A stretch of DNA of 64,000 nt, from the IMG/VR virus record IMGVR_UViG_3300005253_000063, positions 54,355-118,354 of that record; one strand, 5' to 3'. Made by a program: the position numbers and the translations under genes. The notes beneath the pieces were generated by a model. The model was given only the letters and a program-made list of their open reading frames with translations, made no database searches and had not been told where the DNA came from. Shown here piece by piece: positions 9,860 through 29,106 of the stretch (the first letter of the stretch is position 1; every line of letters begins with the position of its first letter). This DNA is from a virus.

Positions 9860-9933
9860 CCGAGCAGATCGGCTCGGGCGTCGACCGGAGCAATCACGCT
9901 CCCAAGCGACACCCTCTAAGGAGGCTGGTAACC
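9860..9933 (+). promoter_or_regulatory. Leader element: two hairpins and extended Shine-Dalgarno
   Basis: Two perfect hairpins in a row: CCGAGC/GCTCGG with a 6-nt loop (9860-9877) and GGAGC/GCTCC with loop AATCAC (9887-9902). GGAGGCTGG at 9920-9928 ends 5 nt before the ATG at 9934. One of five copies of this arrangement in the window. Confidence 0.6.
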
Positions 9934-10395
9934 ATGACGACAACCAACACTGATAGCGGCTCCAACGGCGAGTCCACCCCCACCACCCCCGCAGTCCGCA
10001 AGCTGGAGACGAAGCTGCTGCGCATCGCGGGGCGCATCACCGACTACGGGAAGAAGGTCGGGAAGGTCCCCGACAGCACGGGTGATGAACTGCGCGCGCA
10101 GTTCAAGACCGCGACCGTTGCGGTCAAGGAGATCGTCGCGACCCTCGCGGAGCTGCCCGACAACGTGCTCAGCCGGACCGGCGCGTCGGGCGAGAAGGTA
10201 CCGCTCGCGGCAGGCACGAAGGTCGAGATCCGCGAGAAGGCCCGCAAGGGCTACGAGGGCTTCATGGAGGACGTCGACCTTGTCGGGCTCACCGTCGTCG
10301 AGGTGCGCGGCAAGCGCGTTGCGTGCGACACGCCGAGCGGCATCCGCATCCTCGTACCGCGCGCCCACGTCGTGCTGGAGGAAGCGAGCGCGTAG
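9934..10395 (+). CDS. Hypothetical protein with KOW/SH3-like C-terminal domain
   Basis: 153 residues. The first about 25 residues are Thr/Ser/Asn-rich and probably disordered, a helical segment follows, and residues about 88-150 form a small beta domain (AGTKVEIREKARKG ... GLTVVEVRGKRVACDT) resembling KOW/SH3 barrels that bind nucleic acid or protein. Start fixed by the GGAGGCTGG site. First gene of the long plus-strand block. Confidence 0.45.
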   Translation: MTTTNTDSGSNGESTPTTPAVRKLETKLLRIAGRITDYGKKVGKVPDSTGDELRAQFKTATVAVKEIVATLAELPDNVLSRTGASGEKVPLAAGTKVEIREKARKGYEGFMEDVDLVGLTVVEVRGKRVACDTPSGIRILVPRAHVVLEEASA

Positions 10396-10412
10396 CGTCG
10401 TTCGACTGCACA

Positions 10413-10448
10413 GGGAGCGCGGGCTTAACCCCCCGGGTCCGCGTTCCC
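10413..10448 (+). terminator. Terminator-like hairpin
   Basis: A 10-bp stem with one G-T pair (GGGAGCGCGG at 10413-10422, CCGCGTTCCC at 10439-10448) between the gene ending at 10395 and the start at 10481. There is no T run, so it may be a processing or attenuation hairpin rather than an intrinsic terminator. Confidence 0.4.
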
Positions 10449-10480
10449 GCTGGAGTCAAACGATCAACAGGAGGCTGGCA

Positions 10481-11028
10481 ATGATCACACTCGAAAAAAC
10501 GGTAGGAGAATCTATTTCCGCGGTGCCGAATACGCGGCTCGCGGACAGCTCAAGGCTGGTGGGGCGAAGTGGGACCCCGCCGAACGCTGCTGGTGGATGG
10601 GCAGCGGCAAGGCAAGCGAAGCAGAGCGCATCGCTGCCGCGATCGGCAACTCGCGTACCGAGCATGATGGCGTCGATGGGATCGACACGTCCGACCGTGT
10701 GGTGCGGGGGCGGGCAACATACGCCGGCAAGACTTACTACGTACTCGCCGAGGGGATATCTCAGCGCACGGGCAAACCGTACGCGAAGCTCGCGTTCCGC
10801 GACGGGTCCCGAGTTTTCTGGGCGAAGAACGTGGCGGACGTCGAGGTCGTCAAGCGGTACAACGAACCGACTTCGATCGATGCGCTCCGCGCCTACGCCA
10901 ATCGCCGTCGCGCCGAGGATGCCGGCGAAGTCGAGTGTGCGCTCTGCACACGCTACTGCACTTGCGGCACCGATCGGTTCTGCACCCACCACCACGACGG
11001 GTGCGACCGGTGCGGGATGGAGTGCTGA
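10481..11028 (+). CDS. DUF5710-like protein with C-terminal zinc cluster; apparent -1 frameshift
   Basis: The ATG at 10481 has a perfect GGAGGCTGG site, but its frame is only right for the first six codons. After a run of six A at 10493-10500 the real coding frame is -1: RRIYFRGAEYAARG, then LKAGGAKWDPAERCWW, the typical DUF5710-like pattern (GA-K/R-WD-x-W). A second domain follows, then a Cys/His-rich end (CALCTRYCTC, CTHHHDGCDRC). Reading seven A restores one frame from the ATG. Either ribosomes slip here, or one A is missing. The uninterrupted 3' part alone would start at ATG 10597. Confidence 0.6.
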
Positions 11029-11029
11029 C

Positions 11030-11254
11030 ATGAACGAGTACATCGAACGGTTGAGGAAATGCGCGGCGCTCTGCCGGAAGTGGGGCGACCTCGTGCACCT
11101 GTACGGGAGCGGGGATCTGTCGATCGACGAGGTCGAGGCGTTGGTCCCGTTGGCGCTATCATATAGTAGGGCGCTCATCGTCCTGCGCGCGCAGCTTGAA
11201 GCACCGGGCGGCTTCGATATCGCGCCGCTCCTGCCCACGGGTGTCGCGCAGTGA
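11030..11254 (+). CDS. Hypothetical helical protein, 74 residues
   Basis: Starts 1 nt after the previous stop and ends overlapping the next GTG. Helical, with CAALCRKW near the N-terminus and an acidic middle (LSIDEVEALVPLAL). No family recognised; tightly coupled in the operon. Confidence 0.45.
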   Translation: MNEYIERLRKCAALCRKWGDLVHLYGSGDLSIDEVEALVPLALSYSRALIVLRAQLEAPGGFDIAPLLPTGVAQ

Positions 11255-11586
11255 CCAAGGTGCGCCTCGCAACGGTCAAGGAGACAGGGGAGCGCTACCT
11301 GGTCATGCGGCTGCACTTGCCACGCGACCCGGCCGACCCCGCGAAGGTCTACTGTTGGGGCGAAGTCGCCAAGACGAAGGGTCGGCGCACAACGCATGGT
11401 CCGGCCCGGCTTTTCCTCCGTGACGAGGTCGAGGTGGTCGAGGTCGAGAAGACCGACGAACTCATGCACCGGCTCTGGATGCAGTACATCCGCAAGCTGC
11501 GCGCGGAGGGCCATGACATTGAGGTACATCAGACTCGCGCGGGCAATTGGCACGCGACCGATCGCACGGGGAGAGCTGCACTGTGA
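11251..11586 (+). CDS. Hypothetical protein, 111 residues
   Basis: GTG start overlapping the upstream stop. The first 60 residues look like a small beta domain (VRLATVKETGERYLVMRL, VYCWGEVAKTKG), the second part is helical and basic. Function not recognised. Confidence 0.45.
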   Translation: MTKVRLATVKETGERYLVMRLHLPRDPADPAKVYCWGEVAKTKGRRTTHGPARLFLRDEVEVVEVEKTDELMHRLWMQYIRKLRAEGHDIEVHQTRAGNWHATDRTGRAAL

Positions 11587-11849
11587 CGCGAGCGTGGACG
11601 AAGGACTGTGATTGGGCGTACCGATGGGAAGTCGAAAGGCTCTTCCGCGAGCGTACTCCGCCAGCCCAGGGAGATATCTATTCGATCGACTCCGCGGGCC
11701 GGGTCACAAGATCGGAAATGCGTGCGTTCTCGCAGAGGGTGTTGCTACGCGACCCGCCCGAGACAGATGCTCGTTGGGTCGCGTGCCATGCGAAGTGGTA
11801 TCAGAAGATGTCTCTTCGGGTGCGGCGCGAGATGGGGGAGATCACGTAG
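11583..11849 (+). CDS. Hypothetical protein, 88 residues
   Basis: GTG start overlapping the upstream stop (GTGA). Charged, with several Trp and Arg residues (KDCDWAYRWEVERLF). No domain recognised. Last gene before the leader of the MoxR operon. Confidence 0.4.
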   Translation: MTRAWTKDCDWAYRWEVERLFRERTPPAQGDIYSIDSAGRVTRSEMRAFSQRVLLRDPPETDARWVACHAKWYQKMSLRVRREMGEIT

Positions 11850-11896
11850 GGCGTCTCGCCAGGAGCCGTCGGCTGCTATGGTCGGCGACTCCGCGC

Positions 11897-11933
11897 GAGC
11901 AATCCTGCTCTAACCAAACGGAGGCTGGCACCA
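11897..11933 (+). promoter_or_regulatory. Leader element: hairpin and extended Shine-Dalgarno
   Basis: Hairpin GAGCA-ATCC-TGCTC (11897-11910) followed by TAACCAAAC and GGAGGCTGG (11920-11928), ending 5 nt before the ATG at 11934. The hairpin sequence is identical to the copy at 20537-20550. Confidence 0.65.
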
Positions 11934-13169
11934 ATGAACACACGAATTCTCAGAGCGACTCTCTTCACCCCGGGCCTGTACGGGCGTTGGGGAATCCCGC
12001 TCAACCTCGAAGGCAAACCCGGTACGGCAAAGACGGCGACGTGGCAAGCGCTGTCGCACGAGTCGGGTCTGCACCTCGAAACGGTCATCGCGTCGATCCG
12101 CGAGCCGAGCGACTTTCTCGGCCTGCCGATTCCCATCCGTGACAACGCGGAGCGGCTCCAGGTCATCAACTGGATGCGATCGAAGATGCCGAACGTCAAG
12201 GTGGTCGACGTGAAGCCGAACGAGATCGCGTTCGCCATCACGGACTACGCTCCGCCCGCGTGGGCGATTCGCGCAACGATCGCGAGGCACGCGCTGGTCT
12301 TCTTCGACGAGTTCAACACGGCGCCCCCCGCGGTCCAGGCCGCGCTGCTCCGCGTCATCCTCGAAGGCATGGTCGGGGAGCGCGAGCTGCCGAAGACCGT
12401 ACGCTTCGCGATGGCGATGAACTCGACCGAGGACGCGGCCGGCGGTTGGGACATCGCACCGCCCCTCGCCAACCGTGTCGGCCACGCAGTCTGGGAGTCG
12501 CCCGACCCCGAGGTCTGGTGCGACTGGCGCATTGGCGGCGGCGGGACCAATGGCAAGTTCGGCGATGCCGCGGCCGAGGAGGCACGCGTCATGGAGGCAT
12601 GGGATATTCCATTCGCGCAGGCGTGCGGACTCGTCGCCGCGTTCATTCGCACCCGACCGGAGCTGCTGATGAAGATGCCCTCAGAGGGGGACCCGCAAGC
12701 GAGCAAGGCATGGCCCTCGCCGCGCACCTGGGACTTCCTCACGTGCGCTCTCGCCGGTTCGATGGTGCACAACCTCGCGGAGGAAGACCGCGACGAGTGG
12801 ATCTCCTGCTACGTCGGGACCGAGCCGGCGGGCGAGCTGATCACGTTCCTCGCGAACGCGGACCTGCCCAACCCGGCCGACCTGCTCGACGGCAAGGTCA
12901 AGTGGACCCACGACCCGAACCGGCTCGACCGGACCGCGGCCGTGCTCTCGGCGTGCGCAGCGTACGTCACTTCGAAGAGCACGGAGAAGCGCGAGAAGCG
13001 CGCCGCGGCGCTCTGGAAGCTGATGGCTCCGATCGTCGAAGACGCAGCCGACGTTACGGTTCCTGCGGGCCGCACGCTCTGCCGGGCGCGCCTCGCGCTG
13101 GGCAAAGAAGCGAAGCCTGTCCTCGTGAAGCTCCAGCCGGTTTTGAAAGCAGCTGGCATCCAGCCGTAG
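11934..13169 (+). CDS. MoxR-type AAA+ ATPase
   Basis: 411 residues. Walker A GKPGTAKT at about 28-35, Walker B LVFFDEFN at about 121-128, sensor-like AMAMNSTED at about 160, and an arginine region near LANRVGHAVW. MoxR-type ATPases act as chaperone-like remodelers and pair with VWA-domain proteins; here a VWA protein lies two genes downstream (13974). Preceded by a dedicated leader. Substrate unknown. Confidence 0.75.
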   Translation: MNTRILRATLFTPGLYGRWGIPLNLEGKPGTAKTATWQALSHESGLHLETVIASIREPSDFLGLPIPIRDNAERLQVINWMRSKMPNVKVVDVKPNEIAFAITDYAPPAWAIRATIARHALVFFDEFNTAPPAVQAALLRVILEGMVGERELPKTVRFAMAMNSTEDAAGGWDIAPPLANRVGHAVWESPDPEVWCDWRIGGGGTNGKFGDAAAEEARVMEAWDIPFAQACGLVAAFIRTRPELLMKMPSEGDPQASKAWPSPRTWDFLTCALAGSMVHNLAEEDRDEWISCYVGTEPAGELITFLANADLPNPADLLDGKVKWTHDPNRLDRTAAVLSACAAYVTSKSTEKREKRAAALWKLMAPIVEDAADVTVPAGRTLCRARLALGKEAKPVLVKLQPVLKAAGIQP

Positions 13170-13180
13170 GGAGCCGACCG

Positions 13181-13981
13181 ATGCGGAAGGAGACGAAAGT
13201 CAAACTCGGCGGACGTCGGATACCCTCGCAGTTTGTAACTGCGAGGGCGCCGTGCGCGTGCGGTCGAGGTGGCGCGCACCCCGTATCGATCACACTGGCG
13301 CAGGACGACTGTCTGCTCTCGATTGACTGCGGGTGCGACCTGAAGATGGGCGATGCGGTCGACCGCCTTGGTGGGGACTCTTGCGCGATCCTCGCGTTGG
13401 AACTTTGGAAGGGTGTGATCGGTCGCAAAGCTTCCTACCCGGACAAGGGCGACGCCTTCGCGTTGCTCAACCAAGCGTGGCTCAACGGGAAGCGGTACGC
13501 GGAAGCGGCAGCCAGGAAGCACAAGAACTCGGACACGGACGAGTCGTTGTACCCGGGCTGGTCAGCCGAGGGCTGGACGCTCGAACGTCGTATGGCGTTG
13601 ATGGACCGGGGCGGCAGCGCCGCCGCCGGCTTCCCGGTAAAGTTCGTCATCGATCCCAGCGGGCTGACCACGATGTTCATCGAGGGGGCCCATCCGAGCG
13701 TTGCGACGAAGGGGAAGGGCGGGCGCTGGACGTACGACGAGATGAAGATCGCGGATCTCGCCAAGCGCTCCGATCCCTTCATCGTTGATCCGAGCACACG
13801 ACGACATAGCTACTCGAAGCACTACAACATATGCTGCTCCGCTTGTGCCCTAAATCTTAGGGACAAGAAGGGCAGCGCCCACGTTCGACTCGTCTCGCAT
13901 CAGCAGGCGGTCATCGCCGGCGTACGACGCGCGCTCGCGGTCGTCATGTCGCGACGCGACAAAGGAGGCAATCATGCCTAG
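13181..13981 (+). CDS. Hypothetical protein between MoxR and VWA genes
   Basis: 266 residues from ATG 13181 (GGGAG upstream). N-terminal CACGRGGAHP and CGCDLKMGD, plus ICCSACALNL near the end, suggest one or two metal sites. The middle is mixed alpha/beta. It overlaps the VWA gene start by 8 nt and probably serves the same module. No family recognised. Confidence 0.5.
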   Translation: MRKETKVKLGGRRIPSQFVTARAPCACGRGGAHPVSITLAQDDCLLSIDCGCDLKMGDAVDRLGGDSCAILALELWKGVIGRKASYPDKGDAFALLNQAWLNGKRYAEAAARKHKNSDTDESLYPGWSAEGWTLERRMALMDRGGSAAAGFPVKFVIDPSGLTTMFIEGAHPSVATKGKGGRWTYDEMKIADLAKRSDPFIVDPSTRRHSYSKHYNICCSACALNLRDKKGSAHVRLVSHQQAVIAGVRRALAVVMSRRDKGGNHA

Positions 13982-15602
13982 AGTGAATCGTAAGTCTGGC
14001 GGCGGTATGGATCTCAGTCCGAAGCTGAAGTTCGCCGCCGCGCGGCTGCTCATCCGCGAGAAGGTCCCGTACATACGAAGCGCTCTGCTTGGGATGGTCG
14101 TAGTCTGGGTGCCGGGTCTCGGCACGATGGGTGTGACGTACGACGGCATCCTCATGGTGGACGAGGCGTTCGTTGCCGAGTGCACGATCGAGGAAGTCGC
14201 GGGCGTGCTCTACCACGAGGTCTGGCACGTCCTGCGCGAGCACAACGTTCGCTGCGAAGCGATGGGCTGTGTGCATCCGTTCGAGCACAAGCTCTCGAAC
14301 CTCGCTGGCGACGCAGAGATCAATGACGACATCATGGATCACCCGTTCCCCTTGCCCACGCTCATCGATCCGATGACGGGGCAGGCGGGCGGACCGATCT
14401 TGCCCAAGAACTTTGGCGCAGAGAACGGCCGACTGATGGAGGAATACTACCGACTGCTGCGAAAGCAATGCCAGCCTCAGCAGCAGCCGGGCACCGGCGA
14501 CGGTTCACACGAGAAAGGTTCGGGCGAGTCTGGTCAGGCGGGGGTCGATTCTCCGTCTCCGGGTTCTGATAAGTCCGTGGCCAGTGATGACACGTCGTCT
14601 GGTGGGTCCAACGATGACCCTGGTGCGGGTCAGGGCTCACCCGCTGGGGCGGCGTCGGGTTCCGATGGTCAGCCTGGGGTCGATTCCCAGGCGTCGGGAT
14701 CCGGCGCCGACTCCCCGGCGTCATCGGGCGAAGGCGAATCGAAGGGCGAGGGTGGCAGCGGCAACGCCAAAGGGAAGCTGCCCGAACGTCAAGCCGGTTG
14801 GGGCGCGTGCGGCAGTGCCGCGGGTAACCCCTTGCCGATCGAGGATGAGATCCGCAAGAGGGTCAAGGGCCGCACGAGAGCGGAGCTGAAGCGCATGAAG
14901 CGCGAAGTCGCTGAGGCGGTTCGCAACGAGGCATCGAGGTCGCGTGGCACAGTGCCGGGCGGTCTGCTCCGCTGGGCGGAGAAGTCGCTCAAGCCCGCGG
15001 TGGTTCCCTGGCAGCGCGAGCTGGCAACGGTCTGCCGTGCGGCCATCGCGTATCGACCCGGAGCGGTTGACTACAAGTATGATCGACCCTCGCGCCGACA
15101 GGCGGGGCTCGGCTTCAACTCGGGCGACCCGATCCTGCCGTGCATGAGACAGCCCGTACCGAACGTGCTCATCGCGGTGGACACGTCGGGGTCGATGGGA
15201 ACGAATGAGCTGACCGATGGGCTTCGCGAGTCGAACGGGATTCTCAAAGCGGTCGGCGTGCATGCGACCTTCATGGCGTGCGATGCGGCGGTCCACTCGA
15301 TGCAGAAGGTCCGCTCGTGGCGCGACATCCTGCCGCTGCTCAAGGGTGGCGGCGGGACGTCGTTCAAGCCGGTCTTCGAAGCGCTCAGGAAAGTGCGACC
15401 GAAGCCGGACGTGCTCGTGTTCGTGACCGACGGCATGGGAGACTGCCCCGAGCAACCACCGATCGGAACCAAGGTCGTGTGGTTGCTCGTTGGTTCGCAC
15501 CGCACGAAGCCGAGCATGGGTTCGTATGGAGGCAAGCCCGTCACCTGGGGCAAGTGTATCTACCTCGGTGGCGATCCGAACGCGGAGAAGGAGGCAGCGT
15601 AG
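13974..15602 (+). CDS. VWA-domain protein with N-terminal metallopeptidase-like domain (DUF2201 type)
   Basis: 542 residues. N-terminal domain with HEVWHVLREH (residues 81-90), a zinc-peptidase-like HExxH...H site as in the metallopeptidase domain that precedes VWA in this family. A long Gly/Ser/Asp-rich linker spans about 155-265. The C-terminal VWA domain carries the MIDAS motif DTSGSMG (about residue 403) and FVTDGMGD. Known MoxR/VWA pairs assemble or activate client proteins; the client here is unknown. Start chosen where AGGAGG precedes ATG. Confidence 0.75.
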   Translation: MPRVNRKSGGGMDLSPKLKFAAARLLIREKVPYIRSALLGMVVVWVPGLGTMGVTYDGILMVDEAFVAECTIEEVAGVLYHEVWHVLREHNVRCEAMGCVHPFEHKLSNLAGDAEINDDIMDHPFPLPTLIDPMTGQAGGPILPKNFGAENGRLMEEYYRLLRKQCQPQQQPGTGDGSHEKGSGESGQAGVDSPSPGSDKSVASDDTSSGGSNDDPGAGQGSPAGAASGSDGQPGVDSQASGSGADSPASSGEGESKGEGGSGNAKGKLPERQAGWGACGSAAGNPLPIEDEIRKRVKGRTRAELKRMKREVAEAVRNEASRSRGTVPGGLLRWAEKSLKPAVVPWQRELATVCRAAIAYRPGAVDYKYDRPSRRQAGLGFNSGDPILPCMRQPVPNVLIAVDTSGSMGTNELTDGLRESNGILKAVGVHATFMACDAAVHSMQKVRSWRDILPLLKGGGGTSFKPVFEALRKVRPKPDVLVFVTDGMGDCPEQPPIGTKVVWLLVGSHRTKPSMGSYGGKPVTWGKCIYLGGDPNAEKEAA

Positions 15603-15878
15603 ATGACGAACCCACACCATCAGCGTTACCTGCGAAGAGACTGGATCGAAAGTCTCAACTTCTACTGGACTACGATGGATCTCACCGGCGTCCTTCTTGG
15701 CTGTGCCGAGCTACTCGAACTAGCCAAAAAGGTAGCCATCGAATCCAGCGGCAGCGTGGTTGTCGGCGAGACTCGTCGTTACGGAATGGACAAGTGGCGA
15801 GTGAACGACGTGCAAGCGTGGCACGACCGCGTGCGTGAGGCCGACGCGCGAGCACGGCTTGGGGAGGTAGCGACGTGA
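15603..15878 (+). CDS. Small protein ending in the DAxxRLG tail
   Basis: 91 residues, starting right after the VWA stop. The C-terminus is WHDRVREADARARLGEVAT, a clear example of the shared tail motif. The upstream part is helical with no recognised domain. The tail codons also supply GGGGAGG, the ribosome site for the next gene. Confidence 0.5.
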   Translation: MTNPHHQRYLRRDWIESLNFYWTTMDLTGVLLGCAELLELAKKVAIESSGSVVVGETRRYGMDKWRVNDVQAWHDRVREADARARLGEVAT

Positions 15879-16153
15879 TGCGACAGCACGCGCGGCTCTT
15901 GGCTACGGGCAGGGGTGAGTGGATGACCGAGACGGTGTTCATTGCTGCATGCCGTGTTCTAGTCGACGGATGGCACCTCGACCGTCGTCTCGTCATGGAC
16001 GCCGCCCACGCTGCCGAGTGCGACGGCACGCTCTCCCGCATCGCGACCAGCATCGAGTTCAACGAACCCTACTGGATCGTCAACGAACTCGACCGGTGGC
16101 TCGACACGCTCCGCGTGCTCGATGCCGCACGACGACTTGGGAGGGCGGCGTGA
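15875..16153 (+). CDS. Small protein with DAxxRLG tail, paralog of the next gene
   Basis: 92 residues, ATGA overlap with the gene before. Contains MTETVFIAACRVLV, nearly repeated in the next gene (MTEHVFVAACRELV), so the two are tandem paralogs. Ends in WLDTLRVLDAARRLGRAA. Function unknown. Confidence 0.5.
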   Translation: MMRQHARLLATGRGEWMTETVFIAACRVLVDGWHLDRRLVMDAAHAAECDGTLSRIATSIEFNEPYWIVNELDRWLDTLRVLDAARRLGRAA

Positions 16154-16476
16154 CGCGAAATCCCCACTTGGCCGAGTGTCTGTACGCGGGCGAGTACATG
16201 ACCGAGCACGTGTTCGTCGCCGCGTGCCGCGAGCTGGTTGGCGAAGTGCTCGACCACCGCAGCATCACGCGCGCTGCCTCAGCGAACCGCGTGATGTTTG
16301 AGGGCCACCCCGAGAACGTCGAGACGGTCGACTGGCGCTCTGCCCGGTGGCGTGTGCGAACGGAAGCATGGGACGCGTGGGCCGACGTATTGCGCGCACT
16401 CGATGCTGAGCAGCGCCTCGGCGAACAACCGAGGGACGCCTTTCATGGGCTCCGGTGGGATCCAGAACAAGCTTAG
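16150..16476 (+). CDS. Small protein with DAxxRLG motif, paralog of the previous gene
   Basis: 109 residues from a GTG overlapping the previous stop. Shares EYMTEHVFVAACRELV with its neighbour; the motif WADVLRALDAEQRLGEQ is followed by an extra 14 residues, so it is not strictly terminal here. Function unknown. Confidence 0.5.
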   Translation: MTRNPHLAECLYAGEYMTEHVFVAACRELVGEVLDHRSITRAASANRVMFEGHPENVETVDWRSARWRVRTEAWDAWADVLRALDAEQRLGEQPRDAFHGLRWDPEQA

Positions 16477-16486
16477 CTGCACAGAG

Positions 16487-16506
16487 CGCACGGCTTCGGC
16501 CGTGCG
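16487..16506 (+). terminator. Strong UUCG tetraloop hairpin
   Basis: Perfect 8-bp stem CGCACGGC / GCCGTGCG closed by TTCG, 10 nt after the stop at 16476 and before the next leader. Looks like the end of the MoxR-to-16476 operon, though no T tract follows. Confidence 0.5.
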
Positions 16507-16512
16507 TTCGAT

Positions 16513-16558: not shown

Positions 16559-17434
16559 ATGACGCAACAAGCACAGGCGCAAGGCACTCAACAAGTGCAG
16601 GGCATAGTCGCGGTTACCGAGAGCATGGAAACGGCTGGCTGTATAGTCTGGTGGCGGCTCAGCGGTTCGACCGACGGCTACGCGCTGCGACAGGCGTGGG
16701 AAGACGCGGGACTCCCCGAGGATCTCGTTCCCGAGCTGCCCTCGGCCGAGAAGGCGCTACGCCGCGCGGTCATCGAGCAGCGCGAACGCAGGCGCTTGGT
16801 CCGCCCGCTTGAAGGCACGAAGGGCTGGGCCGTCGTGGACGAAGCGGCGAGCGGCGACGATCTCGATTACTCGGTCAGACTCAAAGTGACCCTCAACAAG
16901 ATCGGCCACGTGAGCATCGAGCCGGAGGGTGCGGTTGGTTCCGACGAGATCAAGGCGGCGTACCAACGCCACCTCGCGCAGTTGGCGCAGACCGACATCA
17001 GCACGTGGCTGGTTCGTCTCGCCGCGCGTGTTCGCGCGGTCGCGCTTCGCGACACAGGCGGCGTATACTTCATCCCCCGCGAACAGGTTGCGCAGTGGCG
17101 ACGGATGGCCGGCGCGCTCGGCGCAGCGAGCGCGAGTCGCGTCTTCGAGGTTCCCGCGCTCAAGAGCGACGAGGCGATCGAAGCCGTGCTCGACGCCGTG
17201 GCGCGCGAGGCCGAGACTGCTGCCGAGGTGATGGAGGAGGAGCTGGCGAAGGAGAATCTCGGGGAGCGCGCGTTGCGTACGCGGACCGAGCGCTGCGGCG
17301 CGATCGAAGAGAAGCTCTCGACGTACGAGAAGCTCCTGGGCACAAGCCTCGACGCACTCCACGACCGGCTCGAAGTTCTGCAAGCCGGTCTCGCAACCGC
17401 GGCCCTCGCAGCGATGGCAGGGGACGACGACTGA
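16559..17434 (+). CDS. Phage protein of DUF6744-like type
   Basis: 291 residues. The N-terminal part (ETAGCIVWWRLSGSTDG, then WEDAGLPEDLVPELPSAEKALRRAV) resembles a family of phage and archaeal proteins of unknown function that I associate with DUF6744; this link is from memory. The C-terminal half is a long coiled coil ending DDD. Start fixed by the repeated leader. Its stop overlaps the next ATG. Confidence 0.5.
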   Translation: MTQQAQAQGTQQVQGIVAVTESMETAGCIVWWRLSGSTDGYALRQAWEDAGLPEDLVPELPSAEKALRRAVIEQRERRRLVRPLEGTKGWAVVDEAASGDDLDYSVRLKVTLNKIGHVSIEPEGAVGSDEIKAAYQRHLAQLAQTDISTWLVRLAARVRAVALRDTGGVYFIPREQVAQWRRMAGALGAASASRVFEVPALKSDEAIEAVLDAVAREAETAAEVMEEELAKENLGERALRTRTERCGAIEEKLSTYEKLLGTSLDALHDRLEVLQAGLATAALAAMAGDDD

Positions 17435-19590: not shown

Positions 19591-20359
19591 GAACAAACAG
19601 CCGCGCCGCACACCGCGCGATGCGCCATGGACTCCGTTCTATCAGTGCGACCACTACACGGACGGAGCCGGCAACAAGACGGCGCTGCCCACGGGCGCGG
19701 TCTATCTGCGCAACAACCACTACCAGGTCGACCTCCGCGTCATGGAGTCGAAGGAACCCTTCGGTCGAGTCGTGTGGCTCTCGATCAAGCGTAACGACCG
19801 TAAGACGATACACGACTGGCGCGACCTGCAGCGCATTAAGACGGAAGTCCTCGGTGCGGAGATCGAGGCGATCGAGTTGTATCCCGCGGAGTCACGACAC
19901 GTGGACACGTCGAACCAGTATTGCCTCTGGTGCTTCATGGACGGCTACCGCTTTCCGTATGGCTACCAGGAGCGTTTGCTCATGGACAAGGATCGCGGTG
20001 ACGGTCCGCCCGAGCTGAGCTTGTCGCAGCAACGACCGTGGCGCTACCACGAGCGACCGGATGACGTCCTCTCGATGGGCGAAGTGATGAGGCAGTACGT
20101 GAAGGACAAGGACTTCGGCGCCCGCGTGGACGGGCTGCCCGCAACAACCAAGGAGGCTGGAGATGGCAAAGGTGCAGTCGAAGAAGTGCAACGAGTGCGA
20201 GGTTCGAAAACCCGTGGGCTCGTTCGACAAACACAAGAACGCGAAGGACGGCTACCGGGCGACGTGCAAGAAGTGCCGCGGCGGAATGAAGGCAAAGGCC
20301 AAGCCGAAGCGCAAGATGTCGCAAGGGCAGAAGGTCACGCTCGCGAACAAGATGACTAA
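19577..20359 (+). CDS. Hypothetical protein with conserved DUF7694-like core; C-terminus overlaps next gene
   Basis: 260 residues from a GTG. The core VVWLSIKRNDRKTIHDW ... LQRIKTEVLG ... ELYPAESRHVDTSNQY resembles a phage protein family that I associate with DUF7694. Beyond about residue 193 the frame lies over the zinc-finger gene at 20163 and has low-complexity composition, so the last 65 residues are probably an accidental read-through of the overlapping gene. Confidence 0.5.
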   Translation: MSKRRNKQPRRTPRDAPWTPFYQCDHYTDGAGNKTALPTGAVYLRNNHYQVDLRVMESKEPFGRVVWLSIKRNDRKTIHDWRDLQRIKTEVLGAEIEAIELYPAESRHVDTSNQYCLWCFMDGYRFPYGYQERLLMDKDRGDGPPELSLSQQRPWRYHERPDDVLSMGEVMRQYVKDKDFGARVDGLPATTKEAGDGKGAVEEVQRVRGSKTRGLVRQTQEREGRLPGDVQEVPRRNEGKGQAEAQDVARAEGHAREQDD

Positions 20360-20495
20360 CGGAAGCGGTGACGAGCACCCGCTCGCGAGTTCGTTGCGCA
20401 AGCTCTACCGCAAGGGCGTGCGCCGGGTCGAGTTCGACGATAAGGGAGTCGCCAAGCTCGAACTCATCTCGACCGAAGTCGTGCGCGGACTGTAG
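20163..20495 (+). CDS. Small basic zinc-finger protein
   Basis: 110 residues with perfect GGAGGCTGG 2 nt before the ATG. The finger is CNECEVRKPVGSF ... YRATCKKC, as seen in small phage DNA-binding and endonuclease-VII-like proteins; no HNH catalytic core is present. Lys-rich linker follows, then a beta hairpin (VRRVEFDDKGVAKLELIS). DNA or RNA binding is likely. Confidence 0.5.
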   Translation: MAKVQSKKCNECEVRKPVGSFDKHKNAKDGYRATCKKCRGGMKAKAKPKRKMSQGQKVTLANKMTNGSGDEHPLASSLRKLYRKGVRRVEFDDKGVAKLELISTEVVRGL

Positions 20496-20535
20496 GACGG
20501 CTGCGCAGGTCGGCTCGATCGTCGGGCCAACCGCC

Positions 20536-20570
20536 GGAGCAATCCTGCTCATCTGGGAAGGAGGCTGGAG
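20536..20570 (+). promoter_or_regulatory. Leader element: hairpin and extended Shine-Dalgarno
   Basis: GAGCA-ATCC-TGCTC (20537-20550), identical to the copy at 11897, followed by GGAGGCTGG (20560-20568), ending 2 nt before ATG 20571. Confidence 0.65.
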
Positions 20571-20963
20571 ATGTCACAACTCCAAGACGTACGCCTGCGC
20601 GGAGTCGCCACTGATGACTTCCGTCGCAGCGAGAAGACGATGTTCGATCGTTGGCGGAAGAAGAACCGCAGCATCAAGTTCGGTCCGAACGATGCGGTGA
20701 TGTTCGTGTCGGGCACGGGTAACCAGATCGTGTTCGTGTTTCGCCCGGTGACGATCGACAACTCGGAGCACAAGGGTAGCGACGAGTACGAGGTCACGCC
20801 CTCGCGAAGGTTGCGGCTCGATGGCGGCACCTGGCACCCGTGGATGATTCAGAAGTACGCGGAGCAGCTTGGGCTGCACGCCGACGGCATCAAGCCGTTT
20901 GAGGCGCACTTCAACGAGTGGCAGGAGCGCAAGCGTCGCCGCCGCAGGAGACGACGGGGGTGA
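20571..20963 (+). CDS. Hypothetical protein with poly-arginine end
   Basis: 130 residues. Central beta part (VMFVSGTGNQIVFVFRP), then a helical segment and a terminal run of ten Arg/Lys residues that should bind nucleic acid. Start set by the repeated leader. No family recognised. Confidence 0.45.
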   Translation: MSQLQDVRLRGVATDDFRRSEKTMFDRWRKKNRSIKFGPNDAVMFVSGTGNQIVFVFRPVTIDNSEHKGSDEYEVTPSRRLRLDGGTWHPWMIQKYAEQLGLHADGIKPFEAHFNEWQERKRRRRRRRRG

Positions 20964-21276
20964 CACGATCCCTCTCATCGCGACCCTGCCCGCGTCATCC
21001 GCGAGCAGCTCCCCTAGAACTGGGTCCGCACACGCGGAGTCCCGTTTCAGGGGGTCCCGCCCAGCGCGACTACAGGGGTTCCAGGGGGACCCCACGAGGG
21101 CGGGCTGTGCTGGGTCCCAGCGTGGGGTCCCCTGTGAGACGCAATGATGCGGCCCTCGTGCGGGCAACCCGCTGTGTCGCAGTACAGAGCGTCGACGGAG
21201 CCGTTAGACCCCGCCGCGGATCCGGGGGGCCTGTGGATCCGCATTGTAAGTGCGCTTACATTTCACAGGGGGCCGC
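20964..21276. other. Structured non-coding region with several inverted repeats
   Basis: About 310 nt without a gene. It holds a 13-bp inverted repeat with one bulge (21083-21096 and 21121-21133) enclosing the palindrome CTGGGTCCCAG (21110-21120); GCGGATCC/GGATCCGC (21216-21223, 21235-21242); and TGTAAG-TGCG-CTTACA (21245-21260) just before the next gene. Could be terminator, operator and structured leader in one, or a small RNA. No promoter is obvious. Confidence 0.5.
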
Positions 21277-21624
21277 GTGAGCCGGCGCAAACGAGGCGAG
21301 GAACCCACGCTCGCGGAGGTCTTCGCAGGGGCCTTTCGCGACATAGGCACGCGTGGCTACGAGCCCGACTGGTCCGAGCGCGCGACGTCGGAGCAGATCG
21401 CGAAGCTTGACGACAAGCGCAGGGGCGTCACCGCGGAACAGGATGCAGTGCGTCGACTCGCGGGTCGATGCGAAGCGTGCGGCCACGCCGAGGTCGACCA
21501 CGTCGAGGTGTGGACTGTCGACATGCGAGTTGAACAACTCGCGCTCGGCCTCGACCGCTCCTCGGGTAGCGCGTTCATCTGCTCCGTGGGCAACTGCCGT
21601 TGTACGGAGTCGGTGAAAGAATGA
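21277..21624 (+). CDS. Hypothetical protein with Cys/His cluster
   Basis: 115 residues from GTG 21277, which has AGGGGG upstream; an in-frame GTG at 21250 lies inside a hairpin and is less likely. CEACGHAEVDH and CSVGNCRC near the C-terminus suggest one zinc site. The stop overlaps the next ATG. Function unknown. Confidence 0.45.
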   Translation: MSRRKRGEEPTLAEVFAGAFRDIGTRGYEPDWSERATSEQIAKLDDKRRGVTAEQDAVRRLAGRCEACGHAEVDHVEVWTVDMRVEQLALGLDRSSGSAFICSVGNCRCTESVKE

Positions 21625-21893
21625 AGCTCTACGAGACCGAAGTCCGCATCCTGGTCTACTCGATCGCGGAGTCGGAAGAAGAGGCGCGCAGGCGTGCGCT
21701 GGAGTTCGCCGATATTGAACTAATGAAGGGGCGCGGCGACGCGTTCATGACCACGCCGATCAGCGAGGTCGATGAGATCGTACTGCCGTGGCCGGACGAG
21801 CGTCCGTACGGCAGCAACAAGAGTTTGACCTGCGCCCAATGGGTGCGGAGGCTGGAGAGACCCGATGCCAAAGAAGACACTGAAGCAGGCTGA
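21621..21893 (+). CDS. Hypothetical protein, 90 residues
   Basis: ATGA overlap with the upstream stop. Begins with a strand-helix unit (YETEVRILVYSIAESEEEARRR) common in small ferredoxin-like folds. No specific family. Ends overlapping the next gene, whose ribosome site lies inside it. Confidence 0.45.
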   Translation: MKLYETEVRILVYSIAESEEEARRRALEFADIELMKGRGDAFMTTPISEVDEIVLPWPDERPYGSNKSLTCAQWVRRLERPDAKEDTEAG

Positions 21894-22329
21894 GCGCGAG
21901 CTAGCGAAAGCGCTCGGCCGTCTGGATGAGTACCAAGGGATCGTCGGGCGACGCAACGCGCGCAAGGCGGTCGCGAAAGCGCTGCGCTCAGTTCGCAACG
22001 TGGTCGATCGCGACTTCGCTCCGATCCGCGGTAGGGCCAAGAAGCGTCTGTCGGGTAAGCCTGCTGACGTGCAGCGCCGCTTCCATCGCCGGATGGAGGA
22101 GCTTGACTACGACCCCGTGCCTTCGGACGCAGCCTTGATGGGGATGCTCGTGAAGGCAAAGGTTCCCATGAAGGTCGAGCCGGGAACTAGCGGTATGGAA
22201 ATTTGGATCCCGCATTGGGTTCTTATGATCCCGCACCACGCGCGCACCGTGTCCCGGCTGCGCAAGCTCGCGAAGTCGCCGAACGACCGCAGAGTCTGGC
22301 TTGCGCGCAAAGCGTTGGAGAAGGAGTAA
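21865..22329 (+). CDS. Hypothetical basic protein, 154 residues
   Basis: Starts with ATG 9 nt after a GGAGGCTGG copy (21847-21855). Highly basic, helical (QAERELAKALGRLDEYQG, ARKAVAKALRSVRNVVDRD). Possibly nucleic-acid binding. Function not recognised. Confidence 0.4.
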   Translation: MPKKTLKQAERELAKALGRLDEYQGIVGRRNARKAVAKALRSVRNVVDRDFAPIRGRAKKRLSGKPADVQRRFHRRMEELDYDPVPSDAALMGMLVKAKVPMKVEPGTSGMEIWIPHWVLMIPHHARTVSRLRKLAKSPNDRRVWLARKALEKE

Positions 22330-22332
22330 GCC

Positions 22333-22905
22333 GTGGCAGACCCGGACGACCTTGACGAGTTCGACGACATCGCGCGGGTGGCTGCGCGCGTTGCGCGGAA
22401 GTACAAACGCACCTATTGGTGGAGCGAGGAGGAGGACCTGCGTCAGGAGGCGTGGGCCGCACTGCTCAAGGCAGTCCACCATTGGGATCCGCGCGTGGGT
22501 GCTCCCCTCGAAGCGTATCTTTGGCGCGCTGCGAACTACGCGCTGCGACCGTTCGTGTGGAAGAACGCCTCGATCGCAAGCGCGTCCTATCGACAGCTCG
22601 CCGAGCTGTTCAAGCACCACCGCGCGCAGCTCAACGAATCGATCGTGGACCCCGCGCCGTCGGCAGACGAGGTCATCGAGGAGGCGCGTTGGCGGCGCGC
22701 GATCCGCAAGGAGCTTGCGCGCATCTTCGCGAGCGACAAAGATGGTAGTCTCGCGGAGGCCGTGCTCATGGCGGGGTACAAACCGTTGCAGGTTGCTCAC
22801 GTCTTGGATGTCCCGGTACAACGTGTCTACAGCGCGAGCGCACAGATACGCCGACGCATCGAATCCGACTACACCCTCTTCAAGCTCTGGAGGAACAACA
22901 CGTGA
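22333..22905 (+). CDS. RNA polymerase sigma-factor-like protein
   Basis: 190 residues, GTG start. Residues about 30-75 match sigma region 2 in character: SEEEDLRQEAWAALLKAV, then WDPRVGAPLEAYLWRAANY. The C-terminal 60 residues could be a region-4 helix-turn-helix (LQVAHVLDVPVQRVYSASAQ). Such a factor could direct host RNA polymerase to phage promoters. Short and divergent, so DNA-binding without promoter activity cannot be excluded. Confidence 0.6.
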   Translation: MADPDDLDEFDDIARVAARVARKYKRTYWWSEEEDLRQEAWAALLKAVHHWDPRVGAPLEAYLWRAANYALRPFVWKNASIASASYRQLAELFKHHRAQLNESIVDPAPSADEVIEEARWRRAIRKELARIFASDKDGSLAEAVLMAGYKPLQVAHVLDVPVQRVYSASAQIRRRIESDYTLFKLWRNNT

Positions 22906-23549
22906 AGATTGCACTGGGACCAGAGACGCACGTCGTCGACGTTCGCTTGGACACGATCGATGAAGCGCCCGACAACCCCAACGTCATGGAGCCCGAGATG
23001 TACGTGCGGCTCGTCGAAGCGATCCGTCGGTTCGGGTTCCTGCAGCCGGTTCTCTTGAAAGAGACGGAGAACGATCGCTTCGAGATCGTGGACGGACATC
23101 ACCGCATCCGCGCAGCGCGCGAGCTGGAGTACGAGTTCGTTTCCGCGGTCGTGGTCGACCAGGAGGATGACGCACACGCACTGGCCGAGGTGCTGCGGGT
23201 CGGGATGAACAAGCTGCGCGGCGAGCTGGACCTCTCCGGGGTCGGGCGCATCCTGGCTGACCTGGAGAAGAACGGTTGGGCAATGGACGACCTCGTGCTC
23301 AGCGGTTTCAACGAGAGCGAGATCAACGACCTGATCGACACGGTGACGCGCGACCCGGGTGAGGACCTCTCCGGTATGGGAGGCGCTCCGCCACCCGACC
23401 TCGACCCGCCGCCACCGCGTCCCTTCCTCATCGAGATCCTGTTCTCGTCACGCGAGGAGTACCAGCAAGCCCGGAAAGGTCTGCGCCGCGCGGCGGGCAA
23501 GGGCAACGAACTGTCTGTGGGATTGCTGCGATTGCTGGGCGAACAGTGA
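22902..23549 (+). CDS. ParB/sulfiredoxin-fold protein (ParB-like nuclease domain)
   Basis: 215 residues, GTG start overlapping the sigma-like stop. Core FGFLQPVLLKETENDRFEIV, DGHHRIRAARELEY corresponds to the ParB N-terminal domain with its G-H-x-R box. A second helical part (WAMDDLVLSGFNESEINDLI) is shared with the related protein at 34204. Phage versions are variously nucleases, ATP/CTPases or regulators; the role here is not clear. Confidence 0.65.
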   Translation: MKIALGPETHVVDVRLDTIDEAPDNPNVMEPEMYVRLVEAIRRFGFLQPVLLKETENDRFEIVDGHHRIRAARELEYEFVSAVVVDQEDDAHALAEVLRVGMNKLRGELDLSGVGRILADLEKNGWAMDDLVLSGFNESEINDLIDTVTRDPGEDLSGMGGAPPPDLDPPPPRPFLIEILFSSREEYQQARKGLRRAAGKGNELSVGLLRLLGEQ

Positions 23550-23597
23550 TAGCGCACAACTAGCGAAACAAGCATACTCAGCGGAGAGGAGACAGTA

Positions 23598-23843
23598 ATG
23601 ACTCGACGCTCGAAGCAAGCAGAGTTTCTACGAACGAAAGGCTACGTCCGCGCGACCAAGGCCGCGCAACTCGTCCGAGTATCACCGTCCGCCATCTACC
23701 GGATGCTGGAGCAGGAGACGCTCGACGGCACGAAGATCGGGGGCCGGTGGTACGTCACGCTCAAGTCGCTCATCGAATACTGTGGCTCGGCTGCGAAGGA
23801 GTTCGGTCTGCTGGAGCTGCAGCGGAAGGCGCGGGCCCGGTAG
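23598..23843 (+). CDS. Excisionase/MerR-like helix-turn-helix protein
   Basis: 81 residues, GGAGAGGAGA upstream of ATG. GYVRATKAAQLVRVSPSAIY followed by a wing (KIGGRWYVTLKSL) is the winged HTH of the Xis/MerR-like helix_turn_helix_17 type. No integrase is in the window, so a regulatory role is more likely than excision. Confidence 0.65.
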   Translation: MTRRSKQAEFLRTKGYVRATKAAQLVRVSPSAIYRMLEQETLDGTKIGGRWYVTLKSLIEYCGSAAKEFGLLELQRKARAR

Positions 23844-24187
23844 TGTCCAAGGTGCTCGGCACAACCCGGGACGGTAGGGCGCGGTTTCACGCGAGCGGGT
23901 GGGACGTTCAGCGTGTCACGGTGCGACATGGCGTGCTCGTATGCAACCAATGCGGGCACGAACACGAGTGCGACGATGAGCTGTGCTTCTTCTTTCATCC
24001 GCAGCGGGGACAAGGACCGTGGGTCTGCCCAGGCGAATGCTACGTCGAGCAGGTTGAGAGTGCCGCACGCTATCGTCTCGCGACCGAGTCGTTTCGCCGA
24101 CTCGGGGGTGCCGGGAGATTCCCGGACGAGGACGAGGTCGAAGACGATCCCTTACACACCGGCATCTTCACCAAGGTTGGTGCCTAG
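23843..24187 (+). CDS. Hypothetical zinc-binding protein
   Basis: 114 residues, GTG start overlapping the stop of the HTH gene. CNQCGHEHECDDELC and WVCPGECY could form one or two metal sites. Placed between a regulator and a helicase. Function not recognised. Confidence 0.45.
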   Translation: MSKVLGTTRDGRARFHASGWDVQRVTVRHGVLVCNQCGHEHECDDELCFFFHPQRGQGPWVCPGECYVEQVESAARYRLATESFRRLGGAGRFPDEDEVEDDPLHTGIFTKVGA

Positions 24188-25575
24188 TGTGGCTGGAAGC
24201 TAATAACTTGCACGCGCGGGTCGTGCGCGCAACGCGAGAAGACCGGCGTTGGTTGCACGGCTACCTCTCGTTCGAAGATACGAGCGCGCACTACCGCAAG
24301 GGTGGGGGTGGCGGACGGACGTCGCTTTACAACCTCATCGCTGACTCGTTCCCCGCGGGACTCATCTCGCTCGTCATCCGCGGTGCAAAGGCCGAGGGCA
24401 TGCAGGTGCAGATCATTGACAAGCGTACGTGCCCCGCGCCACGCGATCCCAACGCGGACCTGGCCTGGCTACGCGACTACCAGGAGGACGCAGTCGAAGC
24501 TAGCGCTCGCAGGACGCGTGGCATTCTCTGGATGCCGACCGGCTCGGGCAAAGGGGAAATAGTGCTCGGCCTTGTGCGCGCGATGCCCTGCAACTGGCTG
24601 TTCGTGGTCCACCGCTCCGGGTTGATGTATGACATCGCGGACCGATACGAAAAACGGAACTCACTCGAAGCAGCTGGCCGCATCGGCGATGGGAAGTGGG
24701 AGTCTGCGGACCCGAGCGGCGCGAGCGGAGCCTCTCTCACGTGTGCGACGTTTCAGACTTTGAGTAAGGCATACGGCACCCCGCAGTTCGCACAGCTCGC
24801 GAACTCTGCCCAGGGCCTCATCGTTGACGAAGCGCACTGTTTGCCAGCCGCGTCGTTTTGGCGCGTCGCGATGCAGATGCGGAACGCGTACTACCGGATC
24901 GCGATGAGCGGCACACCGCTCGCGCGCGGTGACAGGAAGAGCCTGTACACGGTCGCCGCAATGGGCTCGGTCATCTATCGCATCAAGCCGGACGTGTTGA
25001 TCGCTGCAGGCGTGCTCGCGAAGCCGCGCATCAAGTTGGTGCCCTGCTTCCAAACGAGCGACCGGCCCACGTGGCAGGGCGTGTACGGCGAGTGCATCGT
25101 ACGATCGAAGCGCCGCAACCGGCTTGTTACCGAAGCCGCGAAGCGTGCGAAGGCGCCGATGCTCATCTTCGTCAAGGAGATCAAGCACGGCAAGCTGCTC
25201 CGCACGATGCTCGAAGACGCGAACATCCAGACCGACTTCGTCTGGGGTTCGGACTCGCAGCGGTCCCGCGAGCGTTCGGTCGAACGACTGGAGCGCGGCG
25301 ACATCGATGCGATCGTTTGCTCGGTCGTCTTCCAGGAGGGCATCGACATCCCTTCGCTGGAGTCGGTCGTTGTTGCCAGCGGTGGGCAGAGTGTCATCGC
25401 TACGCTGCAACGCATCGGTCGCGGGATGCGAACCGACCAAGGACGTAAGACGACGTTTGAAGTATGGGACCTCGACGACCGTGGGCAGAAGTGGTTGGAG
25501 AAGCACAGCCGCGCTCGGTCTCGCGCGTACCGTTCGGAAGGCTACGAAGTCGTAGTCGAATCGGTGGCCGCGTGA
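24187..25575 (+). CDS. SF2 DNA/RNA helicase, UvsW-like
   Basis: 462 residues, GTG start overlapping the upstream stop. Walker A PTGSGKG (about 117), VDEAH box (about 214), motif III MSGTP, and the C-terminal helicase motifs GIDIPSLESVVVASGGQS and QRIGRGMRT. An N-terminal extension of about 85 residues precedes the helicase core, as in UvsW. UvsW-type enzymes reverse replication forks and branch-migrate recombination intermediates, fitting the RecA/UvsY/SbcCD set here. Confidence 0.75.
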   Translation: MWLEANNLHARVVRATREDRRWLHGYLSFEDTSAHYRKGGGGGRTSLYNLIADSFPAGLISLVIRGAKAEGMQVQIIDKRTCPAPRDPNADLAWLRDYQEDAVEASARRTRGILWMPTGSGKGEIVLGLVRAMPCNWLFVVHRSGLMYDIADRYEKRNSLEAAGRIGDGKWESADPSGASGASLTCATFQTLSKAYGTPQFAQLANSAQGLIVDEAHCLPAASFWRVAMQMRNAYYRIAMSGTPLARGDRKSLYTVAAMGSVIYRIKPDVLIAAGVLAKPRIKLVPCFQTSDRPTWQGVYGECIVRSKRRNRLVTEAAKRAKAPMLIFVKEIKHGKLLRTMLEDANIQTDFVWGSDSQRSRERSVERLERGDIDAIVCSVVFQEGIDIPSLESVVVASGGQSVIATLQRIGRGMRTDQGRKTTFEVWDLDDRGQKWLEKHSRARSRAYRSEGYEVVVESVAA

Positions 25576-25820
25576 TCGAAGTTCCCGCGCGCATCGTCTG
25601 CGACACCGAGGGTTGTGACGCGAGCGAGGACATCGTTCTTCGCAGCAAGGCCGGATCGAATTACCTCGCGGTTCGGAAGGGAATCTGGGACGAGGGGATG
25701 ACGTTGCCACCCGAGTGGGCGGCTATCTGGTCGAAGAGCGAGAACTGCGAGTACATCCAATGCCCGACGTGTGCGAAGACGTATGACGCGCGCAAGCGTT
25801 TGGAAAAGACAACGGCATAG
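25572..25820 (+). CDS. Small zinc-binding protein
   Basis: 82 residues, GTG start overlapping the helicase stop. VCDTEGCDASED and IQCPTCAKTYDARKRLEK give two CxxC-type pairs. Last gene before the terminator at 25824. Function unknown. Confidence 0.5.
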   Translation: MIEVPARIVCDTEGCDASEDIVLRSKAGSNYLAVRKGIWDEGMTLPPEWAAIWSKSENCEYIQCPTCAKTYDARKRLEKTTA

Positions 25821-25823
25821 CAA

Positions 25824-25849
25824 AAGGGCCCCGGTTCCCCGGAGCCCTT
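25824..25849. terminator. Bidirectional terminator-like hairpin between convergent operons
   Basis: AAGGGCCCCGG (25824-25834), loop TTCC, CCGGAGCCCTT (25839-25849): an 11-bp stem with one mismatch, flanked by A-run on the left and TT on the right, between genes converging from 25820 and 25870. Confidence 0.7.
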
Positions 25850-25869
25850 CCGCACGAGCGCGGCGGTCG

Positions 25870-26217
25870 CTACTTCGCCTGCTGGTCGAGTGCTGCCCGC
25901 ACCCAATCGCTCAAGGTCATGCCTGCAGCCTTGGCCGCTGCGTGCCATTGTGCGAGCTGGTGCTTGTAGCAGTTCACAAGCATCTGCGCATCGCGTGGTG
26001 TGGACTTCTTGCGGAGTCGCAGCGGCAGCTCGATGTCGTTCTTCTCGAACCAGTTCTTCGCTGTTGTCTTGCCGATGCGCTTGAAGTCGTCGTCCTGGTG
26101 CACGATCCAGCGGCGACCCGCCGTGAGGTACATCGTCGAGCCGGTGGCCCGCCACTTGGTTGCGCGGACTGGGTTGAACCGTCCGCCGCCTTTGATATGG
26201 ACTTGGATGCTCGCCAT
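25870..26217 (-). CDS. Hypothetical protein, possible ribbon-helix-helix end
   Basis: 115 residues, GGGAGG upstream of ATG. N-terminal beta segment (MASIQVHIKGGGRF) and a C-terminal stretch MTLSDWVRAALDQQAK that resembles a ribbon-helix-helix second helix. Last gene of the minus block starting at 29076. Low-confidence function. Confidence 0.45.
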   Translation of the reverse strand: MASIQVHIKGGGRFNPVRATKWRATGSTMYLTAGRRWIVHQDDDFKRIGKTTAKNWFEKNDIELPLRLRKKSTPRDAQMLVNCYKHQLAQWHAAAKAAGMTLSDWVRAALDQQAK

Positions 26218-26230
26218 CGGCTTTACCTCC

Positions 26231-26476
26231 CTACGCACAGACGCGCTGTTGACTATGGATGCCATTGTAGATTGTGATCGAGCCATAGACTTTGCCGTGA
26301 TGCGACACGTTGTAGAGCATCTCATCGCGGGCCTTGCGCACGATCCAGCCGCGGCCGTACTTTGTGCGGACGTGTTGCTTCGCGAATGCGAGCGCCTCGC
26401 GAGCGGAGTTGAAGCCATGCTCCGTGTAGAGCCCATCACTATCGCCGAACATGCAAAACTGTACTCGGTGTTTCAT
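26231..26476 (-). CDS. Hypothetical protein, 81 residues
   Basis: Mixed alpha/beta with many aromatic residues (YNVSHHGKVYGSITIYNG). Found between small genes of the AAA+/VWA block. No domain recognised. Confidence 0.4.
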   Translation of the reverse strand: MKHRVQFCMFGDSDGLYTEHGFNSAREALAFAKQHVRTKYGRGWIVRKARDEMLYNVSHHGKVYGSITIYNGIHSQQRVCA

Positions 26477-26488
26477 GGTCCGTCTCCC

Positions 26489-26869
26489 TTACGCGAACGC
26501 GCGGTGGTTATGGTTGTGGTTGTCCTCGACCGCTTCGTGTACGCGGGACCCGAGCCCCGAACGATCGACCCAGCGTGCAGACGTGCGCTCGACCAGCTCC
26601 CGTACGAACGACTTGGGCGTGTAACCGTGTTTGCTGATCGCGCTGCGCACGTCCTTGTCGGCCTGCCGCGACACCACGCCGTGGCACTCGCGCGGTGCGT
26701 ACCACGCGTCCACGTCGTCGTGCGCTTCGACCTCTCCAAACATGATGCCGAGAATGTCGCTCGCGCAACGGCTGAGCTTGAAGCTCGGGTGGTGCGCTAA
26801 TCGAAGGACGTACTGCGTGGGCAGGTCCGCCGTGAGCGCGAGGAATGCGATGAAGTTGTGTGTCGTCAT
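26489..26869 (-). CDS. Hypothetical protein preceded by the repeated leader
   Basis: 126 residues from ATG 26869, fixed by GGAGGCTGG (26874-26882). N-terminal helix (NFIAFLALTADLPTQYVLRL), acidic middle, histidine-rich end (HNHNHNH). No family recognised. Confidence 0.45.
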   Translation of the reverse strand: MTTHNFIAFLALTADLPTQYVLRLAHHPSFKLSRCASDILGIMFGEVEAHDDVDAWYAPRECHGVVSRQADKDVRSAISKHGYTPKSFVRELVERTSARWVDRSGLGSRVHEAVEDNHNHNHRAFA

Positions 26870-26906
26870 TGTGCCAGCCTCCTGTTGGTTGGAGCAGAAG
26901 CGCTCC
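26870..26906 (-). promoter_or_regulatory. Leader element: hairpin and extended Shine-Dalgarno
   Basis: In the minus direction: GGAGC/GCTCC hairpin (26891-26906), AACCAACA, then GGAGGCTGG (26874-26882), ending 4 nt before the ATG at 26869. Fifth copy of the leader, on the opposite strand to the others. Confidence 0.65.
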
Positions 26907-26949
26907 TTCACACGCACCCCGTGACCGCGATGCGTGCTGAGGAACATCC

Positions 26950-27189: not shown

Positions 27190-27193
27190 GGTC

Positions 27194-29076: not shown

Positions 29077-29106
29077 GCTGCCAGCCTTTCGTTGAGTTTG
29101 TGGGTT

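Follow-up and report, generated by a model that had tools for sequence, protein, structure and literature searches.

A repeated leader with two competing helices in uncultivated phages suggests an RNA switch

Leaders that recur at the starts of phage genes have been reported since 2011. In cluster K mycobacteriophages, the start-associated sequences (SAS) and extended start-associated sequences (ESAS) are repeats located before the start codons of non-structural genes, and their function is unproven (PMC3203893; PMC11373665). The SAS is a fixed 13-mer, GGGATAGGAGCCC, found 3-9 bp before the starts, and the ESAS are inverted repeats of conserved sequence with SigA-like -35/-10 promoters inside; their authors found little support for RNA pairing (PMC3203893; PMC11373665). 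Here we describe a repeated leader in a 64,000-base stretch (the window; bases 54355-118354) of a 118,354-base uncultivated virus record, IMGVR_UViG_3300005253_000063 (G000). Covariation shows it to act as RNA, with two competing helices. This RNA element is previously undescribed, and the two-way pairing of its middle strand points to a built-in RNA switch.

Among described systems, SAS/ESAS are the nearest analogue. Like the leader, they combine an extended ribosome site with an upstream inverted repeat, stand before starts of non-structural genes and occupy gaps of over 50 bp. Unlike them, the leader has a stem in which sequence is free and pairing is kept, overlapping helices, and no promoter. 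Matches to the SAS 13-mer (up to 3 mismatches) numbered 17 against 14.3 expected, with none at the leaders, and no Rfam 15 family scored above its gathering cut-off at the leaders.

A preliminary description of the window had reported a small GAGC/GCTC hairpin coupled to an extended ribosome site, GGAGGCTGG, as a common leader of several genes. The common leader is supported, the five sites lie where they were placed (9887, 11897, 16513 and 20536 on the plus strand; 26891-26906 on the minus strand), and the two GAGCAATCCTGCTC hairpins are identical. Folding of the leaders revealed a second, longer hairpin (P1) upstream of the small one (P2), so that the GAGC/GCTC hairpin is real but is only half of the element, sharing a strand with the larger P1 that had been overlooked. 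The base of P1 consists of 5' GCUGCACA / GAUGGAGC 3' in the layout 5' GCU-G-CA-CA [stem] GA-UG-G-AGC 3', which includes a one-by-one G.G mismatch and, in most copies, an internal loop of two by two, and P1 as a whole has about 19-22 levels, internal loop included. P2 has the consensus GGAGC-RNUYMN-GCUCC and lies just upstream of the Shine-Dalgarno (SD) site, with CCAA frequently following it. GGAGC serves the P1 base as its 3' strand and P2 as its 5' strand, and the two helices are therefore mutually exclusive. The copies in the window are as follows.

9846..9936, plus strand: leader copy 1; P1 9846-9891; shared GGAGC strand 9887-9891; hexaloop AATCAC; P2 3' arm GCTCC 9898-9902; SD 9920-9928; ATG 9934 of a 153-aa gene; cmsearch 50.8 bits
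10405..10483, plus strand: leader copy 2, P1 only (10405-10456), no P2 partner; base ACUGCACA / GCUGGAGU (compensated ACU/AGU); SD 10470-10478; ATG 10481; 46.3 bits
11854..11936, plus strand: leader copy 3; P1 of 4 bp, mismatch, 7-8 bp, base GC/GC; P2 GAGC 11897 AATCCT GCTC; SD 11920-11928; ATG 11934 (MoxR-like ATPase); 48.6 bits
16476..16561, plus strand: leader copy 4; first base is the final base of the upstream TAG; canonical base GCUGCACA / GAUGGAGC; UUCG-capped P1; P2 with GGAGC 16513-16517 and 3-nt loop; SD 16546-16554; ATG 16559 (DUF6744 gene)
20500..20573, plus strand: leader copy 5; base GCUGCGCA / GCCGGAGC; P2 GGAGC 20536 AATCCT GCTC; SD 20560-20568; ATG 20571 of a 130-aa gene; 57.8 bits
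26867..26945, minus strand: leader copy 6; base GUUCCUCA / GAAGGAGC; P2 26906-26891; SD 26882-26874; ATG 26869 of a 126-aa gene; 44.3 bits

A covariance-model search of the whole record, a check that the preliminary description had proposed, returned these six copies only, all in the window; of two weaker rows, one matched copy 1 in antisense and the other was at chance level. Relatives were found through terminase homologues (syntenic), then by a DUF6744 protein search, and then with a second covariance model (E-values derive from short calibrations). G003 and G005 have the same leader in several copies each, and a covariance model built from six copies gave 15 copies in three phages. The DUF6744 search added G067 and G084, and the second model added G018. 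The final set comprises 22 copies in six divergent phages: G000 (6), G003 (4), G005 (5), G067 (5), G084 (1) and G018 (1). The mismatch at the P1 base is G.G in 15 and C.G in 7. The first position of the P2 loop is a purine in all 20 gap-free rows and the third is U in 18, the 16559 leader, which has a 3-nt loop, being misplaced in this alignment.

That the leader acts as folded RNA is shown by covariation, which the preliminary description had suggested seeking in relatives and which was found for both stems. In P1, the sequence varies freely and pairing is kept: across the 22 copies 95.0% of cells are paired, against 66.7% after shuffling, a count biased towards pairing since the alignment was fitted to the P1 of the model (P2 lies outside it). 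The covariation score of P1 is 0.748 (shuffled: 0.248+-0.025), and registers slid by 1-3 positions score at most 0.114. The P1 base alone scores 0.543 (shuffled: 0.211+-0.033), and its innermost pair is seen as A-U, G-C, C-G and U-A. P2 is near-invariant in the first three phages. It showed no covariation in the first 15 copies (0.070 vs 0.064), and P2 alone as the element was dropped; the matter was settled only by the relatives. With these added, P2 reaches 0.256 (shuffled: 0.108+-0.024; 0/500 shuffles), with double changes in four of its five pairs and the variants GGAGU/ACUCC, GGUGC/GCACC, GGGAC/GUCCC and CGUGC/GCACG. At one column of the shared strand (column 84), three of four changed bases (A->U twice, A->G once) are compensated in both the P1 and the P2 partner. 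Cells that keep both pairings number 76 of 88, against a mean of 65.3 and a maximum of 72 in 5000 shuffles of the shared bases; copies in one genome may share ancestry, and such cells are not independent events.

Two conserved helices with a common strand are most simply read as a conformational switch, and we lean slightly towards the view that the leader is a two-state mRNA switch controlling early genes post-transcriptionally. In fold A, the base of P1 would be closed, with the 5' GCUGCACA paired to GAUGGAGC. In fold B, the GGAGC strand would leave P1 and build P2 just upstream of the SD site. Fold A would form first, during transcription. A cover on the 5' strand GCUGCACA would then open the P1 base, let P2 form and thereby set translation or stability of the downstream gene; the cover could be an RNA-binding protein, of the phage or of its host, or a ribosome that terminates where the stop codon abuts. 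Measured from an upstream stop codon, 16 of the 22 copies start at -1 to +13 nt (15 at -1 to +9), and in the 16559 copy and two G003 copies P1 starts on the final base of that codon. A terminating ribosome is a natural candidate for the trigger where a stop abuts the leader. A protein is at least as likely, because six copies have no abutting stop. In 13 of 14 copies the SD site is predicted to be more accessible when P2 is formed (mean 0.58 vs 0.44). Together, the several copies of a genome would make up a small RNA regulon. Indeed, a broader proposal can be made, although we regard it as doubtful: a switch copied before several early genes, opened at its stop-abutting 5' strand by a terminating ribosome or a phage protein, controlling translation although no pairing blocks the ribosome site, and maintained through triple compensation among phages with little DNA identity.

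Besides the alignment bias mentioned above, several observations weigh against a switch. The energy differences between folds A and B, predicted with a nearest-neighbour model, spread from -6.7 to +7.8 kcal/mol, and therefore not every copy is balanced. P2 is absent at 10481 and apparently in the leader of the G005 ATPase gene, and in one G005 copy (G005_82624) P1 and P2 lie on separate strands. Six of the 22 copies are away from any upstream stop. The 4-nt complementarity between the 3' arm of P2 and the SD site exists in only part of the copies and is lost with GCACC or GCACG, so that the output may depend on P2 itself, on a bound protein or on RNA stability. Occlusion of the SD site by GCUCC, present in G003 and G005, is lost in G067, G018 and some copies of the window, and was rejected as the mechanism. 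CsrA-like GGA sites and T4 RegB-like GGAG cleavage were dropped because of the GGUGC and GGGAC variants, and an intrinsic terminator at the leader was ruled out by the lack of a T-tract.

The strongest rival is processing by an RNase III-type enzyme with refolding into P2, which we think unlikely. P1 would be cut between genes, its remnants would shield the 3' end of the upstream mRNA, and the freed GGAGC would fold into a protective 5' P2 beside the SD site. The free sequence and kept pairing of P1, its length, suited to an enzyme of double-stranded RNA, and its position between early genes directly after a stop codon all agree with such processing, which would also account for P1-only copies and for the lost SD occlusion. 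Against it stands the conservation of GCUGCACA/GAUGGAGC, of the G.G mismatch and of the RNUYMN loop, since RNase III does not require the base sequence to be conserved. A constitutive leader, whose hairpins merely insulate or stabilise the mRNA and hold a strong SD site open without switching, would fit the long and stable P1, the closeness of P2 to the SD site and the strength of the SD sites themselves. A plain stabiliser, however, has no need of covarying helices that exclude each other, nor of triple compensation at the bases they share, and we give this explanation little credence.

The preliminary description had left the role of the leader between an RNA stabiliser, a protein-binding site and an early-promoter mark. 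Given the covariation, an RNA-level role (protein binding, processing or stabilisation) fits; the promoter mark does not. The gaps between conserved blocks vary from 18 to 40 nt with the length of P1, most copies start at the upstream stop codon, and a scan of 9500-29400 for sigma-70-like promoters gave one match against 2.7 expected, at or below chance. The same variable spacing and scan, together with a P1 that is free in sequence but paired and three P2 sequences within G067 that a single DNA-binding protein would not read, make a promoter or operator acting at the DNA level, as with the cluster K ESAS, very improbable. Such an element might be read by a phage sigma factor, and the phage does encode a sigma-70 region 2 protein (22333-22905); moreover, a related phage, G009, has promoter-like repeats and an inverted repeat at orthologous genes. 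In G009 (L122-L127), this different repeated leader occurs near 35226, 36500 and 38553 as TTGTCT-16-TAnnnT plus the inverted repeat TTGGCCAGTnTGGTAnnnTTGGCC, and looks like a promoter and operator. The leader-bearing genes therefore look like regulated points that are handled differently among phages.

The ribosome site is a separate matter. GGAGGCTGG occurs 10 times in the window against 0.57 expected (0/100 shuffles reach 10), and eight of the copies lie 2-9 nt before an ATG, the exceptions being 7280 and 42347. The preliminary description had listed it as standing alone before 10481, 20163 and 21865, which holds for the latter two; at 10481 it follows a P1, if no P2. No structured leader precedes 20163, 21865 or 29076, the last of which has AAAGGCTGG in front as first described.

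20152..20160, plus strand: GGAGGCTGG before 20163, the gene of a zinc-finger-like protein; without P1 or P2; outside the element
21847..21855, plus strand: GGAGGCTGG before 21865, within the upstream open reading frame (ORF), without P1 or P2; outside the element

GGAGGCTGG is thus a ribosome site favoured by the G000 phage with or without a structured leader. Judged by the relatives, which have AAAGGAGA, CAAGGAG and others, it is outside the conserved element. GGAGGCTG with different endings stands in front of further genes elsewhere in the record. In G013 (L111-L116), GGGAAACC.GCGGGTTTCCTATAAA.GGTGGTGGAGGCTGA occurs twice (60598 and 63094), each time ahead of a start codon, and forms another repeated leader with the same GGAGGCTG ribosome site. 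DUF6744-bearing phages L186, L187 and L190 have the ribosome-site string AAAGGAAAAACGCCAATG or one near it, possibly a further start-associated repeat.

The record carries a direct terminal repeat of 121 bases at its ends, and the genome is therefore probably complete and circularly closed, at about 118,233 bp. The leaders are located in a rightward non-structural operon (about 9.9-25.8 kb) and at the start of the facing leftward operon. Genes of the region encode a MoxR-like ATPase, a VWA/metallopeptidase-like protein, a DUF6744 protein, a sigma-70 region 2 protein (conserved in relatives), a ParB-domain protein and a helicase; the terminase gene is elsewhere in the record. We call the leader-bearing genes early from this gene content. 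The early region of the relatives has the order ATPase, VWA protein, DUF6744, sigma-like, ParB and helicase, and two of these genes carry the leader in several phages.

11934..13169, plus strand: MoxR-like AAA ATPase gene; orthologues in G003 and G067 with the leader
16559..17434, plus strand: DUF6744 protein gene (PF20529); orthologues in G003, G005 and G067 with the same leader

The ATPase orthologue of G005 has a degenerate P1-only leader, judged by eye. Of roughly 100 terminase-, DUF6744- or ATPase-bearing records searched with the models, convincing copies were found only in G000 (and G001, a near-identical fragment of the same phage), G003, G005, G067, G084 (and its fragment G085) and G018. 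The model searches found no leader in about 90 other related records, and its distribution is therefore patchy. Beyond the known phages and G001, pattern scans of IMG/VR gave mostly chance matches. A DUF6744 scan of the genome collection found no prophage or host, and none of the phage records in the GenBank collection had a relative of the G000 DUF6744 protein detectable by tblastn.

Several other features of the window were observed. The ATG at 10481, after leader copy 2, is out of frame with a protein-like ORF at 10597-11028 (KWDPAERCWW..., with a cysteine-rich tail); it looks as if a single base has shifted the frame near an A-run (about 10497-10503), whether in the phage itself or through an assembly error. 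A GC-rich inverted repeat between the facing operons (25822-25850) is likely a bidirectional terminator, and an AT-rich one (ctatatag..ctatatat, 29100-29150) upstream of the leftward gene 29076 is a candidate promoter or operator of the leftward operon. The GTP cyclohydrolase I gene (37269-38810) and the RecA-like gene (45503-47551, minus strand) are each split by about 300 residues matching LAGLIDADG homing endonuclease, and these insertions are probable inteins. A transposase gene (phrog_506; 40481-41671, minus strand) lies within the leftward gene block.

With its strands defined, the formerly vague leader, now seen in six divergent uncultivated phages, becomes an RNA switch open to testing, suggesting that some phages coordinate early genes post-transcriptionally, beyond promoters alone. 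Parts of this arrangement have parallels in other systems. In the early mRNA of phage T7, RNase III processing signals take the form of irregular hairpins, about 20 bp long and several to a genome, that lie between early genes, and P1 is likewise a long irregular hairpin between early genes; we know of no second hairpin in T7 that shares a strand with these signals and adjoins the SD site. As in riboswitches and attenuators, two conserved helices with a common strand lie just upstream of the SD site. Unlike them, the leader does not conserve SD occlusion, and within one phage it recurs many times, at genes unrelated to each other. The com-mom system of phage Mu is a case of translational control of a single gene, and it resembles the leader in that a protein could open RNA structure beside the ribosome site.

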